Source of the DNA: a virus
Strand: one strand, 5' to 3'
DNA: 37,375 nt
IMG/VR virus record: IMGVR_UViG_3300025421_000004
Location: 1 to 37,375 of that record
A program made the position numbers and the translations under genes. This document shows, one piece after another, positions 2,027 through 37,375 of the stretch; position 1 is the stretch's first letter, and each line of letters starts with the position of its first letter. The notes below the pieces were generated by a model. The model worked only from the letters and a program-made list of their open reading frames with translations, made no database searches and was not told the origin of the DNA.

Positions 2027-2058
2027 GATTTTTTCCCCCTCGTTTGTCTGTAAGATTA

Positions 2059-2087
2059 TCTTTAGCGCAATTATTCACAGATGTAAA
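2059..2087 (-). promoter_or_regulatory. Candidate leftward early promoter
   Basis: Read on the minus strand, TTTACA (2087-2082) and TAAAGA (2064-2059) are separated by 17 nt. The first matches the -35 consensus at 5 of 6 positions and the second matches the -10 only weakly. It lies about 35 nt upstream of the first leftward gene. A second possible leftward -35, TTGACT, lies at 2276-2271 beside AT-rich DNA. Promoter calls by eye are uncertain. Confidence 0.35.
2071..2079 (+). promoter_or_regulatory. DnaA box (TTATTCACA)
   Basis: TTATTCACA is an exact match to the DnaA box consensus TTWTNCACA. Only one exact box is seen in this region. Two or so would be expected by chance in the whole genome, so the location beside repeats and AT-rich DNA is what makes it notable. 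It may be bound by host DnaA or by the phage DnaA domain IV-like protein at 36913-37215 (inference). It also overlaps the spacer of the candidate leftward promoter. Confidence 0.45.
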
Positions 2088-2122
2088 GTATTTTCTTGCA
2101 TAAATTTTCACTTTTGTTTTTA

Positions 2123-2366
2123 TGGGTGATTTTTCTGGGTTGTTTGGGTTGTGGCTTGGTCGAGCAATGGGTTGTAAGCCAGGCTCATATAATGCCCATA
2201 ATTCATAGCTTTGGGTTGTTTGTGTTATTATTATTAGATAAAAAATAAAAAATATATAATAATTGATATAAGTCAAATAGGTCTTGAACGTGGGCGACTG
2301 TAGAAAAGTCATTCAGCGACTTAAAACCTATCACCCAAACAACCCATATCACCCAACAATCACCCA
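2123..2366. repeat. Cluster of TGGGTTGT / TGGGTGAT short repeats flanking an AT-rich core
   Basis: TGGGTTGT occurs at 2136, 2145, 2168 and 2212 on the plus strand and inverted at 2339-2346. The related TGGGTGAT occurs at 2123 and inverted at 2330-2337, 2348-2355 and 2359-2366. Two copies combine into a perfect 14-bp inverted repeat, TGGGTTGTTTGGGT (2136-2149) against 2333-2346. Nine copies of so similar an octamer in 244 bp is far above chance. They flank AT-rich 2221-2280. They look like iterons or operators for an unknown DNA-binding protein. Confidence 0.75.
2263..2276. promoter_or_regulatory. FNR/FixK-type box (TTGAT-N4-GTCAA)
   Basis: TTGATATAAGTCAA fits the FNR/FixK palindrome TTGAY-N4-RTCAA at every specified position. 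Such sites bind FNR, FnrL, FixK or CRP-family regulators, which are common in Alphaproteobacteria. It lies at the edge of the AT-rich core, between the early and late gene blocks, where a bound host regulator could affect either direction. The AT-rich surroundings raise the chance of a random match, so this is a candidate only. Confidence 0.4.
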
Positions 2367-2372
2367 ACTCTT

Positions 2373-2459
2373 GTTGACATTTGACTTAACATTTTACTTT
2401 AAGTTTACATTCTAAGTTAAGTTGACATTTGTTTACATTGAGCTGGTAGTTGACATTTG
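2373..2459 (+). repeat. Three direct repeats of GTTGACATTTG
   Basis: Identical 11-mers lie at 2373-2383, 2421-2431 and 2449-2459, with degenerate GTTTACATT copies at 2403 and 2431. Offsets from the first are 30, 48, 58 and 76 bp. Each perfect copy contains TTGACA, the -35 consensus, but no convincing -10 follows at 16-18 bp, so they may be binding sites instead of stacked promoters. They lie just upstream of the small terminase, where packaging sites and late promoters are often found. Confidence 0.65.
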
Positions 2460-2563
2460 GGGGAGGGGGTCTGGGCCTTGACCATCCCTTAAAGGTTTAC
2501 GAAGGGACTGCACGAAAATTTTTTTTATTTGCTAAAAAGCACCCCGTCATATATTTTGTTGCA

Positions 2564-3091
2564 ATGACATTCCAATCGCTACCTTATGAGCCGCGCAAGA
2601 TCGAAGCGACGGAGCAACGGCTCGGTCAGATCTATGAAGCGGCGCGGCGGGGGTTAAAAGGCGACGCACTGGCGTTGGCCTGTGATATGATGCCAGTCGA
2701 GTATCGTCGGCTTATCCAACTCGATCCGATCGCAGAGTATTACGAAACCAAAGGACGCGCTGACGGCGAGATGGAAATGGCGGGCGTTTTAAGAGACGCG
2801 GCGCTGGCAGGCGATGCAAAAGCTGCGCTTGATATTTTAAAGCATGTGCATGGTTGGGTTGCCAAACAAGCGGTCAGTGTCGAGGTCAACCAGACGATCT
2901 CTATTACGGCGGCGTTACAAGAGGCGCAGCAACGGGTCATTGAAGGGCAGATAATAGATGCAAGTGCCAATATACTCCCCGGAGGAGGAACAGCGTCTTA
3001 TGGCGACCTTATGGTCGCCGCAAATAAAGAACGACCCGCTGTCGTTCGTGAGGCTGGCGTTTCCGTGGGGGAAGCCAGGGACGCCTCTTGA
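2564..3091 (+). CDS. Terminase small subunit (probable)
   Basis: The product is 175 aa from ATG 2564. Function is inferred from position directly upstream of, and overlapping, the large terminase, from its size (P22 small terminase is 162 aa) and from a helical N-terminal part that could bind the packaging site (ATEQRLGQIYEAARRGLKGD...MPVEYRRLIQLDP). The C-terminal part is Gly/Ala-rich and would contact the large subunit. No ribosome site is seen before the ATG. The frame stays open upstream to a TTG at 2450 inside a repeat, but that extension is G-rich and low in plausibility. It overlaps the next gene by 134 bp. Confidence 0.8.
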   Translation: MTFQSLPYEPRKIEATEQRLGQIYEAARRGLKGDALALACDMMPVEYRRLIQLDPIAEYYETKGRADGEMEMAGVLRDAALAGDAKAALDILKHVHGWVAKQAVSVEVNQTISITAALQEAQQRVIEGQIIDASANILPGGGTASYGDLMVAANKERPAVVREAGVSVGEARDAS

Positions 3092-5564: not shown

Positions 5565-5764
5565 GCTACGCTAAGAAAGCAGCGATGAAAATCGAAAAGC
5601 GTGAGCCTCGCGAGCCACACGCTGGCGCGGGCATGAAAGGTAAACCAGTGCCTAAAACGCTTCTTGCTGAACGTAATAGCCCAACGCACCACCCACATTT
5701 GACGGGTGAGATTAACCCAAAGCACGACAAGCCACACGTCCTTCGTAATCTCAAGGGCTGCTAA
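5561..5764 (+). CDS. Small basic hypothetical protein (67 aa)
   Basis: ATG at 5561 overlaps the previous stop (ATGA) and its stop overlaps the portal start (TAATG), so it is tightly coupled. The product is basic with a Lys-rich N-terminus (MSYAKKAAMKIEKREPREPH) and a His/Pro-rich middle (SPTHHPHLTGEINPKHDKPH). No domain recognised. It is the last of four consecutive small basic proteins before the portal, and likely expressed in similar amounts to them. Confidence 0.7.
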   Translation: MSYAKKAAMKIEKREPREPHAGAGMKGKPVPKTLLAERNSPTHHPHLTGEINPKHDKPHVLRNLKGC

Positions 5765-10243: not shown

Positions 10244-11335
10244 ATGACCGATGTAAAGATCTCCGCGCTTCCGTCTGCCACGACTCCACTTACTGGCACG
10301 GAGATTCTTCCGATTGTTCAAGGTGGCACGACAGACCAAGTTTCCGTAGCTAATCTGACCGCAGGCCGCGCTGTCTCTGCCGCCAGCTTGACCCTGACCA
10401 CAACACCGCTTGGCGTTGCTTCTGGCGGCACTGGCCTCACCAGTTTAACGGCTGGATATATACCGTATGGGAATGGGACGAGTGCGTTTAGTTCATCATC
10501 AGGTTTGTATTTTGATGGATCAAATTTAGGTATCGGGACAACTTCACCAGTCAATAAACTTGAAATTCACAGTAACACCACAGCCGACTGTTCTTTATAT
10601 TTTAGCAATGATTACAGTGGAGCAGCATATGCTGCAAATATCAAGTTAAACGCTGCTAATACCTCTGGCGCAAACTATAATGGGTTATTTTGCCTTAGCA
10701 ATGGAACAGTGAACTGGCAGATATACGGAGCCGGATCGTCTAATACTATAGCATTTGCAACAGGTTCTTCTTCAACAGAACGTATGCGCATCGACAGCAG
10801 CGGCAACGTAGGTATTGGAACTCAGACCCCAGGTTCATATGGTAAATTAGCAATAATTGATGCGACGGCTGCTAGTATTGTTAATTCAACTTCTAGCACA
10901 AACGGATATTCTTTTGTTCAACTTCAGAATACAGGATCTGGAGGACGCTCATGGCAATTTGCAACAGGCGGTTCAGCTTCCATATATAACGGTGGCTTTG
11001 CTATATTTGACTACACAGCTCTTGCCACTCGTTTATTTGTAGATAGCAGCGGTAACGTATTAATTGGAACAACTGTAGCAGGAACCCTTCTTACAGTTAA
11101 TGGTGTTGGCACGCTATGCTCAGGAACAGCCACACCCGCTGGCGGTTCTACATCTGCGCGCCTTCTTTTTGGAACAACCGCTGGCTTTGGTATTTACTAT
11201 GGCTCCGGCGCACCAACTGTCTCAGCCGCTCAGGGGTCTATTTATCTTCGATCTGATGGCTCATCTACGTCTACACGAATGTATGTAAATACAACCGGTA
11301 GCACTACTTGGACAAACGTGACAACAGCCGCGTAA
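10244..11335 (+). CDS. Fibre or appendage protein (363 aa)
   Basis: AAGGA precedes the ATG. The N-terminal KISALPSATTPLTGTEILPI is a widely shared phage fibre start. It is followed by GVASGGTGLTSLTAGYIPYG and by two or three copies of the RMRIDSSGNVGIGT-type repeat seen in trimeric fibres and spikes. The C-terminus (GSIYLRSDGSSTSTRMYVNT and TTWTNVTTAA) is also a common fibre end. No chaperone or peptidase residues are evident. It is probably a capsid or tail appendage that contacts the host surface. Confidence 0.82.
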   Translation: MTDVKISALPSATTPLTGTEILPIVQGGTTDQVSVANLTAGRAVSAASLTLTTTPLGVASGGTGLTSLTAGYIPYGNGTSAFSSSSGLYFDGSNLGIGTTSPVNKLEIHSNTTADCSLYFSNDYSGAAYAANIKLNAANTSGANYNGLFCLSNGTVNWQIYGAGSSNTIAFATGSSSTERMRIDSSGNVGIGTQTPGSYGKLAIIDATAASIVNSTSSTNGYSFVQLQNTGSGGRSWQFATGGSASIYNGGFAIFDYTALATRLFVDSSGNVLIGTTVAGTLLTVNGVGTLCSGTATPAGGSTSARLLFGTTAGFGIYYGSGAPTVSAAQGSIYLRSDGSSTSTRMYVNTTGSTTWTNVTTAA

Positions 11336-31662: not shown

Positions 31663-33544
31663 CTTTGAGACGAGGTCTGAGTGCGATCTCAAGACGGCGG
31701 GCGTATATAATTACGCCCGTCACGACACAACAGAAGTGTTGTGTATGTCATATGCCATCGACGATGGCGACGTTAAGACATGGCGTCCGGGTGAGCTGTT
31801 GCCCGTCTTAACAGGTCAGATTCGCGCGCATAACGCTGCGTTTGAGCGTCTGATTTTCTGGCATGTGTTAGGGCATCAGATTCCATTAGAGCAGTTCTAC
31901 TGCACCGCTGCACAAGCGCGGGCTAACTGTGCGCCAGGCTCGCTAGAAGACGTTGGCCGTTTTGCCAATACCGGCATGAAGAAAGACCATCGCGGCAACT
32001 ATCTTGTGCGTCAATGTTGCGTGCCGCCATACAATGATGAGTTATTACCTGAACTGATCGAATATTGCGAGCAGGACGTGCGCACAATGCGCGCCGTCTC
32101 AAAGGCGATGCGAGAGCTGACAGACGAAGAGCTTTTAGATTATCATGTCAACGAGCGTATTAATGACCGTGGCGTCAAGGTTGATGCTTATCTTTGTCAA
32201 GCCGCCATGCGTTATGCTGCTGATGAGCTGCAAGAGATTGAGCGTATTGTCAAGGAGGTAACGAACGGTGAAATCACATCGGTCAGATCACCTAAGATGC
32301 GTCAATGGGTCCAAGACCGCGTCGGACCAGAAGCGCTCAAGCTCATGGAGCGAGAGGGCAAGTATTCGATTGACAAAACAACGCGCGCAAATCTTTTGGC
32401 GATGGAAGATCCTGAACAAGTGCCGCCGGACGTGGCCGAGGTTATACAATGCGCTGACGATTTATGGGCTTCTTCTGTAGCAAAGTTCAAGCGTCTCTTC
32501 GATCTTGGCTGTGATGACCACCGCGTCAGAGGCGCGTTTGTATTTGCTGGCGGTAGCGCCACAGGCCGCGCGTCATCATACGGCGCTCAGGTGCATAACT
32601 TTACCCGCAAATGTGCTGATGATCCTGAAGCCGTTCGCACCGCTATGGTGCGCGGGCATAAGATCGTGCCGCAATATGGCAAGCGCATAACGGACGTTCT
32701 TAAGGGTATGTTGCGTCCGTCGCTCATGCCAGAGTCAGGTAATCAATTTGTTGTCGCTGATTGGTCAGCTATTGAAGGTCGCGTTAATCCTTGGCTGTCT
32801 GGCAATGGCGAAGACAAGTTAAAAATCTTTGCGTCTGGCCTCGACGTTTACAAAACAAACGCATCAGCGACGTTCAACGTCTCATATGATGCAGTTGACA
32901 AAGATCAAAGACAGGTCGGCAAGGTGCAGGAGCTGGCCTGCGGATTCGGCGGCGGTATCGGAGCCTTCGCGGCTATGGGCCGCGCTTATGGTCTACAAAT
33001 GCTTGAAGACGAGGCGCGTCGGATGGTCAACGCCTGGCGTCGTGCTAATCCGTGGTCTGTGCCATTTTGGGAATCTTTAGAGACAGCATACACGCGAGCT
33101 TTGCGGAATAAAGGTAAGATATTCTCCGCAGGCCGTATATCTTATCTGTTCGACGGCCAACATCTCTGGTATTCTCTCCCGTCCGGGCGCGTTCTTTGTT
33201 ACCCTTTTGCCCGTTTTGAAGACGACAATATCACTTATGCGAAGGCGAGTTGGAAACCTGCGGCTGACGCCAAGGAGTGGCCGCGTGCCCGTCTATGGCG
33301 GGGTCTAGCGTGTGAGAATGTTACACAGGCTACAGCTCACGATCTTTTGCGTGCGTCTCTTCGCCGTCTTGATGATGAGGGTTTTAATGTTGTCCTGCAC
33401 GTTCACGACGAGATCGTTCTTGAGACAGATCAGCCAGAGGAGGCAAAGCAGCGGTTAGAAGAAATAATGATAACGCCGCCCGAATGGGCGCATGGATTGC
33501 CATTGCAAGTAGAAGCGGGGGTTATGGGGAGATATGGAAAATAA
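31649..33544 (+). CDS. Family A DNA polymerase with proofreading exonuclease
   Basis: From ATG 31649 the 631-aa product has a 3'-5' exonuclease domain (VDFET with Asp5/Glu7; AHNAAFE; YCEQD with Asp143) and polymerase motifs A (VADWSAIEGR, Asp371), B (GKVQELACGFGGGIGAF, about 424-440) and C (HVHDE, Asp587). This is the short phage type lacking a 5'-3' nuclease. A frame open upstream to 31562 overlaps the previous gene and is not conserved-looking. The gene overlaps the primase-helicase by 11 bp, so the two are co-expressed. Confidence 0.94.
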   Translation: MIWVDFETRSECDLKTAGVYNYARHDTTEVLCMSYAIDDGDVKTWRPGELLPVLTGQIRAHNAAFERLIFWHVLGHQIPLEQFYCTAAQARANCAPGSLEDVGRFANTGMKKDHRGNYLVRQCCVPPYNDELLPELIEYCEQDVRTMRAVSKAMRELTDEELLDYHVNERINDRGVKVDAYLCQAAMRYAADELQEIERIVKEVTNGEITSVRSPKMRQWVQDRVGPEALKLMEREGKYSIDKTTRANLLAMEDPEQVPPDVAEVIQCADDLWASSVAKFKRLFDLGCDDHRVRGAFVFAGGSATGRASSYGAQVHNFTRKCADDPEAVRTAMVRGHKIVPQYGKRITDVLKGMLRPSLMPESGNQFVVADWSAIEGRVNPWLSGNGEDKLKIFASGLDVYKTNASATFNVSYDAVDKDQRQVGKVQELACGFGGGIGAFAAMGRAYGLQMLEDEARRMVNAWRRANPWSVPFWESLETAYTRALRNKGKIFSAGRISYLFDGQHLWYSLPSGRVLCYPFARFEDDNITYAKASWKPAADAKEWPRARLWRGLACENVTQATAHDLLRASLRRLDDEGFNVVLHVHDEIVLETDQPEEAKQRLEEIMITPPEWAHGLPLQVEAGVMGRYGK

Positions 33545-35828
33545 TTTATTACCTTATTTGTGCAGTCTTGCGCCTGAAGGCGAGACCCTGCTGGTCGTAA
33601 AACAAAAGCCAACGGGCGGCAATCATCTCGACGGGTCGCCTAAATATACATGGCCTGCCTACATGCCAACGCATAAGCGTAAGGACGGTGAGGCGTGGTA
33701 TGTGAACACAGGCTCTTTTATCGTTGATCGTTTTAAGGATGGTCGTCCATCTGCGTCGTCATCAAATTGCGAATACGTCGCGTTTATGATGCTGGACGAC
33801 ATCGGCACGAAGTCTAAAGAGCCGCCGTTAGAGCCGACATGGATTATTGAGACTAGCCCAGGATCGTTTCAGTGGGGCTATGCGTTCAGCGAACAACCGA
33901 CCAAAGGAGAATATTGTGCTGCTATTACGGCCATTGCTAAAAGCGGTTATACTGATCCTGGTGCTACCAATGCTGTTCGTAATTGCCGCCTGCCAGGTAG
34001 CGTTAACCTCAAGCCGGGACGCGATAATTTCCAAGCGCGCCTCGTTAAATTCCAAAAAGGACTAGAATATACCCTGCCTGAGATCTGTCAGGCGCTAGGA
34101 GTAACGCCCGATGAAGCGGATACCGCCAAGGCTATCTCGATCAAGCTGCGAGACACAGGCGAAGACAGCGTGTTGCAATGGCTCAACGACCAGAACCTCG
34201 TCTTATCGTCGATCAATGCGGAAGGCTGGCTCGGCGTTGTCTGCCCGAACCATGCAGAGCATACGGATGGTCAAGTTGAGGCACGCTATAATCCCCTTAA
34301 TCGCGCATTTTGCTGTTACCATGGTCATTGCGATCATCTGACCAGCGCCTCGTTTCTTGACTGGGTCTGCGATAATGGTGGCCCGCAAGTAACGCCGGGC
34401 TTACGTGACGATGTTTTAGCTAAAGAAATGGCGCGTTTACGTGACTTATTGCCTAATAATGACATGTTTAAAGACGATGCCAACAAGCGGATCGTCGAGG
34501 TCGAGCGCAAGCAGGCTGGCCGGGTCGAGCGCACCGGCTGGTTCGAGCGCTTTGCTTATATCCTGACCGATGACGCCTACTTTGACCTTGAGACGCGCAC
34601 AGAGCTGACGCGCGGCGCGTTTAACGCCGTGTTCAGACATATCGAGTGTCAATCAACACATGGTAAAGCGCGCCGTATCGAGGCTTCGACATGGTTTGAC
34701 GAGCATCGTCAAGAGGTCGGTGGGTTGCTCCTTAAAGGTCTGACCTACGCCGCTGGCGAAGAGCCTTTGGTCTATAACAAGGACGGTGACGTCTACGGCA
34801 ACCGCTGGATGGACGCGCGCCCTAAGCCCGGTAAGGGCAGTGTCAACAGATGGCTAGCGCATTGCGAGCGGCTTGTGCCTGACCCTAATGAGCGTGCGCA
34901 TGTCTTAGATGCGATGGCGTTCAAGGTTCAGAATCCTAAAGTAAAGATCAATCACGCGATCCTGCATGGCGGCGACGAGGGCTGCGGTAAAGACACCATG
35001 TGGGCTCCCTTCATATGGGCCGTGTGTGGGCCTAACTATAAGAACCGTGGCCTTGTCGATGGCGATAACCTCACCAGCCAGTGGGGCTATGCTATGGAGA
35101 GCGAGGTCTTGATCCTTAACGAGCTTAAGGAGCCAGAGGCACGCGAACGCCGCGCGTTGGCTAACAAGCTCAAGCCTATTATCGCCGCGCCACCTGAGAC
35201 GCTCCCGATCAATCGTAAGGGCTTGCATCCTTATGACATGGTGAACCGCCTCTTCGTCCTGGCGTTTACGAACGATCCCGTGCCGATCTCGCTGCCATCT
35301 CAAGACCGTCGATGGTTCTGCCTCTGGTCGCGCTCGTCACGTATGCAGCCTAATGAGGCTAAAGCAATATGGGAATGGTATAAGGCTGGCGGCTTTGAAG
35401 CTATCGCTGGCTGGCTAATGAGCCGCGATGTCTCCAAGTTCAACCCGGCTGCGACGCCTATGGAGACTGATTTCAAGCGCACGATGATAAGTTCAGGCAT
35501 GTCAACGGCTGAGTCTTACATCCTCGACGAGATCGAAGCCATGCGTTATCCTTTCAACCAGGGCGTTGTTGCTGGTCCATGGTTCAAGATCTGTCAGAAG
35601 CTCGCAGGTCTGGCTCCGACCGGCGTCAAGATCCCTCAAGCGGCGCTCTTACACGCGCTCAAAGAGGCAGGCTGGCGCGACCTTGGCCTTGTCCATGCGC
35701 CGGAGTATAAGAACAAGCGGCATCTTTTCGTATCCCCAAAATTGAAGCATTATAACAAGTCAGATCTTCGTCGCATGGTCGAAGATACGCCGCAGGAGGG
35801 GAATGTTGTTGCGCTTCGTCCTAATTAG
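33534..35828 (+). CDS. Primase-helicase (RepB/PrimPol-like primase, zinc site, SF3 helicase)
   Basis: The 764-aa protein has an N-terminal primase-polymerase-like part (MMLDDIGTK, about residue 85-93; SFQWGY; RNCRLPGSVNLK), a Cys/His cluster (CPNHAEH ... CCYHGHC, 237-266) that likely binds zinc, and a C-terminal SF3/DUF5906 helicase with Walker A HGGDEGCGKDT (478-488), Walker B-like LILNE (526-530) and FVLAFTNDPVPISLP with a final DRRW Arg. Helicase plus primase in one chain supports autonomous replication. GGGGAG is just 2 nt before ATG. Confidence 0.9.
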   Translation: MENNLLPYLCSLAPEGETLLVVKQKPTGGNHLDGSPKYTWPAYMPTHKRKDGEAWYVNTGSFIVDRFKDGRPSASSSNCEYVAFMMLDDIGTKSKEPPLEPTWIIETSPGSFQWGYAFSEQPTKGEYCAAITAIAKSGYTDPGATNAVRNCRLPGSVNLKPGRDNFQARLVKFQKGLEYTLPEICQALGVTPDEADTAKAISIKLRDTGEDSVLQWLNDQNLVLSSINAEGWLGVVCPNHAEHTDGQVEARYNPLNRAFCCYHGHCDHLTSASFLDWVCDNGGPQVTPGLRDDVLAKEMARLRDLLPNNDMFKDDANKRIVEVERKQAGRVERTGWFERFAYILTDDAYFDLETRTELTRGAFNAVFRHIECQSTHGKARRIEASTWFDEHRQEVGGLLLKGLTYAAGEEPLVYNKDGDVYGNRWMDARPKPGKGSVNRWLAHCERLVPDPNERAHVLDAMAFKVQNPKVKINHAILHGGDEGCGKDTMWAPFIWAVCGPNYKNRGLVDGDNLTSQWGYAMESEVLILNELKEPEARERRALANKLKPIIAAPPETLPINRKGLHPYDMVNRLFVLAFTNDPVPISLPSQDRRWFCLWSRSSRMQPNEAKAIWEWYKAGGFEAIAGWLMSRDVSKFNPAATPMETDFKRTMISSGMSTAESYILDEIEAMRYPFNQGVVAGPWFKICQKLAGLAPTGVKIPQAALLHALKEAGWRDLGLVHAPEYKNKRHLFVSPKLKHYNKSDLRRMVEDTPQEGNVVALRPN

Positions 35829-36912: not shown

Positions 36913-37215
36913 TTAACACCCAATAGAATCTCGATTATCGCTATTATTATAACCGACATTACGCCCTGGTTTTCTATATTCTTTCCCATCTAATCTCGCC
37001 TGATAACAGCGCTCCCCGTGTATGACTGTTGTATGATCGCGCTTTAACACGCGTCCAATTTGTGGATAGCTGGCGCTCGTTTCCCGCCGCGCGCGCCAAT
37101 AGATTCTATAGCGTGTCCATAGGATGTCTTGCCGCCTGCTATAGCTTAAGACCTGCTCCGGCGAGAGGTTACTGTCCAATGCCTCTTCCAATAAGATTTG
37201 TTTTACTTTCTTCAT
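36913..37215 (-). CDS. DnaA domain IV-like DNA-binding protein (100 aa)
   Basis: ATG at 37215 follows AAGGGGAAA. Residues 25-75 match the DnaA C-terminal DNA-binding domain: YSRRQDILWTRYRIYWRARR (basic helix), SYPQIGRVLKRDHTTVIHGE with the signature DHTTV (60-64) that reads DnaA boxes. The ATPase domain is absent, so it cannot melt DNA alone. Small DnaA-C proteins occur in alphaproteobacterial phages. It could bind the phage DnaA box or compete with host DnaA (inference). Confidence 0.85.
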   Translation of the reverse strand: MKKVKQILLEEALDSNLSPEQVLSYSRRQDILWTRYRIYWRARRETSASYPQIGRVLKRDHTTVIHGERCYQARLDGKEYRKPGRNVGYNNSDNRDSIGC

Positions 37216-37375
37216 TAGGCTTTCCCCTTAATTTTTTTAGCTTTGACATTGTTTTAAACGTGCGCGATAGCCCGCTACTGGCCGTCGCCTTATCGCCGGT
37301 CAATGATTCGGTTTCTTTTATTGCGGCGTCGATGGCTGCATACCATCCAGCCTCAAAAAATAAATATCTTTGATC
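37169..37375 (-). CDS. Small hypothetical protein, 3' part of the junction-crossing gene
   Basis: The frame is open from the right edge to a TAA ending at 37169. Bases 37277-37375 repeat bases 1-99, so this is the same 71-aa gene whose ATG lies at 108. The part beyond the repeat is basic (SKLKKLRGKPNEESKTNLIG). It overlaps the start of the DnaA-like gene by 47 bp in another frame. Confidence 0.68.
   Translation of the reverse strand, partial: DQRYLFFEAGWYAAIDAAIKETESLTGDKATASSGLSRTFKTMSKLKKLRGKPNEESKTNLIGRGIGQ
37277..37375. repeat. Terminal direct repeat, right copy (circular-contig overlap)
   Basis: Identical to bases 1-99. This should be counted once when the genome is closed. Confidence 0.93.

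Follow-up and report, generated by a model that had tools for sequence, protein, structure and literature searches.

At iteron plasmid and lambda-type origins, repeats and an AT-rich element are served by a dedicated Rep or O protein, which recruits the host DnaB helicase. P4 alpha is a fusion of primase and helicase that binds short iterons through its C-terminal winged helix; the P4 origin is AT-rich, and a second iteron region, crr, lies kilobases away from it. The replicon of the Staphylococcus aureus pathogenicity islands (SaPIs), the subject of Ubeda et al. in 2007 and 2012, reportedly consists of Rep or Pri-Rep plus ori. The origins of the phage-inducible chromosomal islands (PICIs) always have two iteron sets around an AT-rich region, an organization stated to be known in no other bacterial replicon (PMC6092414), and the C-terminal domain of SaPI Rep and of the related Cch2 is reported to bind the iterons (PMC7581432). 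The NrS-1 polymerase forms a hexameric ring of superfamily 3 (SF3)-like type, a novel fold is reported for its Tail domain, and the NrS-1 genome has two copies of the 8-nt recognition sequence (PMC7102993). The stretch of DNA studied here, 37,375 nucleotides of a viral genome (IMG/VR record IMGVR_UViG_3300025421_000004, positions 1 to 37,375; the whole stretch is referred to as the window), very probably holds the start point of DNA copying in a freshwater virus of bacteria, as judged from comparison with its relatives. We consider it highly likely that positions 2123-2366 constitute an iteron-type replication origin, recognized and melted by the phage's SF3-type primase-helicase, in a family of complete, autonomous phages.

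Nine octamers of the form TGGGTKRT lie within this interval, five on the plus strand and four on the minus strand, in two convergent sets, and the AT-richest stretch of the window falls between the sets. The window as a whole has 12 such octamers, compared to a mean of 2.65 in shuffled sequence, and none of 100 shuffles reached 12. Only three copies lie outside the interval, scattered over the remaining 37 kb, and of these TGGGTGGT at 5688 and TGGGTTAT at 10681 differ from the two words named in an earlier note on this DNA. That note had placed a candidate origin at 2027-2460, citing nine related octamers, a perfect 14-bp inverted repeat and an AT-rich core of roughly 60 bp in a long non-coding region. 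These elements are all borne out: the excess of octamers is real, the inverted repeat is present at 2136-2149 / 2333-2346, the core is flanked by the convergent sets, and the gap between the end of a leftward gene at 1916 and the ATG of terS at 2564 (read by eye) is the longest non-coding gap of the window. The location stands, and the extent shrinks to the interval that the octamers actually occupy.

The same layout is seen in relatives. We collected 192 loci with a primase-helicase and a terminase on one contig from TerL- and helicase-based IMG/VR searches. These include the window itself, the environmental podovirus assembly MW202483.1 and some near-duplicate contigs; the primase-helicase is present in all of them because they were selected for carrying it. 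In 181 of the 192 loci, a convergent-array score, based on convergent words around an AT-rich centre, was above the 95% level for shuffled sequences, and at one locus (L055) the array is the single clear peak in 21 kb (10.4, compared to a median of 3.4). MW202483.1 has the same layout, with TTGGTAGTG as the left word, CACTACCAA as the right word and an AT-rich stretch between them. The words that replace the octamer in the wider relatives include TTGGTAGT, TTGGGTCAT, TTGTGGACAAT, ATCGTCAT, TTTGGGTCATT, TTAGGCTA, GGTTAGGC and TTTCGGCA. Adjacent sites are most commonly 9 bp apart (253 of 562 spacings family-wide), and the core between the innermost sites has a median length of 94.5 bp. Some automatic word calls had taken GC runs or the adjoining GTTTACAT repeats (L002, L292, L293 and L197, for example), and these were corrected by hand or excluded. 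No convincing array was seen in distant Vibrio phages, the helicase regions of which are about 29% identical. The GTDB genomes that we searched held no relative of the helicase, and for this reason no prophage form was found.

Closer to the window, an alignment of it with 12 near relatives (13 distinct sequences in all) gives a mean conservation of 0.998 for the TGGG at the nine sites, compared to 0.867 for the region, and none of 259 circular shifts of the site pattern reached the observed value. For whole octamers the test reached no more than p = 0.07, and the choice of the tetramer was made with that result already known, so that the TGGG conservation is supporting, not independent, evidence. 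The other half of the octamer, its last four bases, varies among close relatives (e.g., TGGGTTGT, TGGGCTAT, TGGGTGTT). Absence of the octamers from close relatives, which the earlier note regarded as damaging to its proposal, is not what we find: the TGGG part is conserved there, and in the wider relatives the word is replaced while the layout is kept. The AGCGACTTAAAACC element is retained even in relatives whose iteron word has changed, as AGCGACTT in L002, L024, L197 and L199 and in the related form AGCGACCTGAAAC in L016; it is possibly a host-factor site or a start site.

The primase-helicase comprises an N-terminal primase domain and a DUF5906 helicase domain (PF19263 and PF16793 above cut-off; 6k9c at E = 3e-4), and by sequence it belongs with the NrS-1-polymerase-like primase-helicases. 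An AlphaFold2 model predicts the order helix-strand-helix-helix-strand-wing-strand for the C-terminal domain (last 175 residues). The presumed recognition helix is nearly invariant, with a mean entropy of 0.46 bits, and the wing is variable (1.88 bits). An exact 99-bp terminal direct repeat (1-99 and 37277-37375) and relatives such as L004, which continue across the terminal junction, indicate that the genome probably closes into a circle of about 37,276 bp. On that circle the primase-helicase sits 3.6 kb upstream of the repeats: its gene ends at 35828, and the origin starts 3.6 kb further round, beyond leftward genes.

The word and the wing change together. Our two-class test covered 84 loci (71 distinct helicases) with either TGTGGAC words (34 loci) or GGGTCA words (50 loci). 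Wing column 735 separates the two classes perfectly and columns 726, 729, 730, 732 and 740 do so at 0.986, whereas the best columns of the polymerase (Pol), TerS and TerL reach 0.68, 0.72 and 0.73, respectively, over a baseline of about 0.6. The wing signature is K.R with TGTGGAC words and A.G/S/A with GGGTCA words, and the wing residues tell the classes apart in 81 of 82 loci. The sole exception, L056, has a KSR wing and a GGGTCA-class word; its relatives that share the KSR wing have hybrid words of the form TGTGNGTCA. The minimum number of word-class switches is 9 on a tree of helicase residues 1-560, which leaves out the C-terminal domain, compared to 17 on the TerL tree and 23 on the TerS tree. 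Wing class follows word class in all 8 supported independent pairs in which it differs, and runs in the reverse direction in none. For close pairs, the distances of word and wing are correlated (r = 0.75) when the rest of the helicase is controlled for, with -0.08 for TerS and -0.17 for TerL. A second clade, of phages carrying a stand-alone DnaA domain IV protein (DnaA-IV), shows a one-base change of the word, ATCG to ATAG, that tracks a change of one wing residue, C/S/Y to M/L, at the same alignment position. This link holds in 26 of 26 loci and covers 3 switches; if the three loci with a different main word are set aside, it holds in 23 of 23. What is observed directly is the layout, the fact that it is conserved, and the joint variation of word and wing. 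The words change in step with the wing of the primase-helicase, which makes this protein of the phage the most likely reader of the origin words.

Several points weigh against this assignment. The partial correlation of wing and word over all pairs, distant ones included, is modest (0.20). For all pairs of DnaA-carrying loci, the group of the window, it is slightly negative (-0.09); for the close pairs of these loci it is 0.45. The two-class loci lie outside the window's own subclade. The direct evidence is strongest in relatives, and it is carried over to the window by homology and the identical layout. The C-terminal domain alone had no significant match among Pfam and PDB sequences, a Foldseek search of the PDB gave only weak winged-helix-like matches (E of at least 0.02), and the P4 alpha domain is absent among the 50 Foldseek matches listed. 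Oppositely oriented genes separate the origin from the helicase gene, unlike in SaPI. Near 2 kb the cumulative GC skew indeed turns upward, and the earlier note had named an extremum at 2.0-2.5 kb as support for an origin, but the turn is confounded with gene orientation. It is not independent evidence, because the coding direction switches from minus to plus at the same place and no opposite turn was seen half a genome away. As for the way in which words switch, recombination of a linked block is possible; terS, which is nearer to the repeats than the helicase gene, does not travel with the word, and this weighs against such a block.

The position of terS bears on another explanation, namely that TerS, the terminase small subunit, binds the octamers as a pac or cosB site for the initiation of packaging. 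The packaging site in lambda and many phages is next to the terminase genes; here terS starts 200 bp from the octamers, the array is next to terS and terL, and a TerS signal of 0.25 is left among close DnaA-carrying pairs. Nonetheless, none of the TerS columns tells the word classes apart, changes of word in close pairs do not track TerS distance (the near-zero partial correlation given above), and at least 23 word switches are needed on the TerS tree; on these grounds TerS was rejected as the reader of the octamers. A different family of repeats, TTGACATT/GTTTACATT, sits closer to terS. We regard a packaging site as very improbable. We give an equally small chance to an operator array, at which a transcription factor would control divergent leftward and rightward promoters. 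The intergenic region is divergent and TTGACA-like boxes are close by, but promoter-like matches are near chance level, and an operator would explain neither the layout around the AT core nor the 9-bp pitch nor the link with the helicase wing. An array bound by the helicase could also repress transcription.

Least probable of all is binding of the octamers by the DnaA-IV protein of the phage, as initiator or regulator: it has a Bac_DnaA_C match, nearly all of the 88 of 192 relatives that have the gene carry it on the minus strand between helicase and origin, and the word class TGTGGACAA is one base from a DnaA box, yet no such gene was found in 104 of the 192 loci, among them those with a DnaA-box-like word, the protein's signature RDHT[TS] is mostly constant though words differ, and DnaA distance adds nothing beyond phylogeny in close DnaA-carrying pairs (0.05, compared to 0.45 for the wing). 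This protein was rejected as the word reader on the missing genes and the lack of co-variation, and the same missing genes make the DnaA-like protein of the earlier note a weak argument for an origin. A DnaA-box (oriC-type) origin was likewise rejected: the supposedly exact box, TTATTCACA at 2071, matches TTWTNCACA but departs from TTATCCACA at one position, and it is the single TTWTNCACA in the window, below the 3.1 expected by chance. Box, DnaA-like protein and GC skew do not carry the conclusion that the earlier note drew from them. The replication origin itself is upheld and is the best-supported reading, because the repeat word and the presumed DNA-binding wing of the primase-helicase change together across independent switches. 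As a separate observation, the arrays of L065, L069, L081 and L082 use the word TGTGGACAA (TGTGGATA in L081), a near or exact DnaA box, and the DnaA-IV gene was not found there; host DnaA might compete or help at these words.

Features of the origin region and of the candidate and control proteins in the window
Feature	Position	Strand	Remarks
Left iteron set	2123..2219	+	Five octamers: TGGGTGAT 2123-2130; TGGGTTGT 2136-2143; also 2145-2152, 2168-2175, 2212-2219
AT-rich core, presumed DNA-unwinding element	about 2220..2276		About 90% AT per 60 bp; between the convergent sets
AGCGACTTAAAACC element	2315..2328	+	Between AT core and right iteron set; (near-)invariant in close relatives
Right iteron set	2330..2366	-	Four octamers: ATCACCCA at 2330, 2348, 2359; ACAACCCA at 2339
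terS (terminase small subunit), adjoining origin	2564..3091	+	Used as control; no TerS column separates word classes
Primase-helicase (RepB_primase + DUF5906, NrS-1-polymerase-like, SF3-type), proposed initiator	33534..35828	+	Pfam; NrS-1 chains 6k9c/6k9e by sequence
C-terminal winged-helix region, proposed origin-binding domain	35505..35732	+	AlphaFold2 model, residues 590-764, predicted local distance difference test (pLDDT) 82
Hypervariable wing, residues 721-728 HAPEYKNK, proposed specificity element	35694..35717	+	Co-varies with origin word
Stand-alone DnaA domain IV protein	36913-37215	-	RDHTT signature; Bac_DnaA_C match

Other elements adjoin the origin. A second repeat family occupies 2372-2459, between the origin and terS (TTGACATTTG three times, GTTTACATT twice). 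At least four of its words are found within 1 kb upstream of terS in ten DnaA-IV-carrying relatives and in no relative lacking DnaA-IV; they could be TerS or packaging sites, an operator, or DnaA-IV sites. At 2504-2530 lies GGGACTGCACGAAA with a T run after it; this element is conserved upstream of terS in MW202483.1 and others and is a possible promoter or packaging element. In MW202483.1 the origin region and terS have between them a gene annotated as a homing endonuclease (L002 10712-11158). In Thiohalocapsa phage LS06-2018-MD04 (L314 17780-18260), dense CTGAAGGT repeats lie directly upstream of the primase gene, with a score of 13.7. An Rfam search of the window gave no match.

The mechanism that we propose for the origin follows reports for SaPI Rep, Cch2 and PICI origins. 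Subunits of the primase-helicase would bind the octamers of each set via the C-terminal winged helix, the wing of which would read the variable bases of the word. The convergent sets would assemble two oppositely facing helicase rings, one on each side of the AT-rich core. The core would melt between the rings, these would move outward, and the fused primase and the family-A polymerase of the phage would begin synthesis. Binding by the primase-helicase, ring assembly, melting and the direction of replication are steps that we infer. A wider scenario is put forward tentatively, as one that may well prove wrong: a large family of autonomous phages from fresh water would have satellite-like origins, with the word set mainly by the wing of the initiator-helicase and not by its recognition helix. 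Word and wing would have been switched many times as a matching pair, perhaps owing to competition between co-infecting relatives that share a word, which would place replication specificity under diversifying selection, as in plasmid incompatibility.

The comparison with known systems places the locus as follows. Iteron plasmid and lambda-type origins share the repeats and the AT-rich element, but here the helicase itself is the proposed recognizer, and both sets point toward the core. With NrS-1 polymerase (PrimPol-helicase, 6k9c/6k9e) the protein shares the DUF5906 helicase region by sequence; NrS-1 is without iteron arrays around an AT core, and its Tail is a novel fold in place of the winged helix predicted here. 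P4 alpha and its ori are similar in the primase-helicase fusion, the short iterons, the AT-rich origin and, as far as the model goes, the C-terminal winged helix. Unlike P4, there is one repeat cluster and no distant crr, with only the three scattered octamers elsewhere in the window, and the P4 domain is not among the listed sequence or fold matches of the C-terminal domain. The SaPI/PICI origins are likewise made of two iteron sets flanking an AT-rich region, and their element-encoded initiator helicase, often primase-fused, has a C-terminal iteron-reading domain (PMC6092414 Fig. 2; PMC7581432), a role to which the co-variation points here. They differ in that the SaPI/PICI origin is immediately 3' of rep, whereas here 3-5 kb lie between origin and helicase gene and the neighbour is terS, and in that these are complete phages and not satellites, with their own structural and terminase genes (TerL matched by PHROGs; portal and virion-type open reading frames by synteny with MW202483.1). 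The origin is best called one that works like a SaPI/PICI origin, in a phage that is not a member of the SaPI/PICI group. What is new is a SaPI/PICI-like origin in what looks like a large autonomous freshwater phage family, at a distance from the helicase gene and with word and wing changing fast as matched pairs. An origin layout regarded as exclusive to phage satellites (PMC6092414) is thereby extended to complete phages. The many origin words paired with initiator wings are a natural data set from which the recognition code of SF3 initiators may be read, and convergent arrays, together with co-variation with the helicase C-terminus, offer a route to origins in uncultivated phages.
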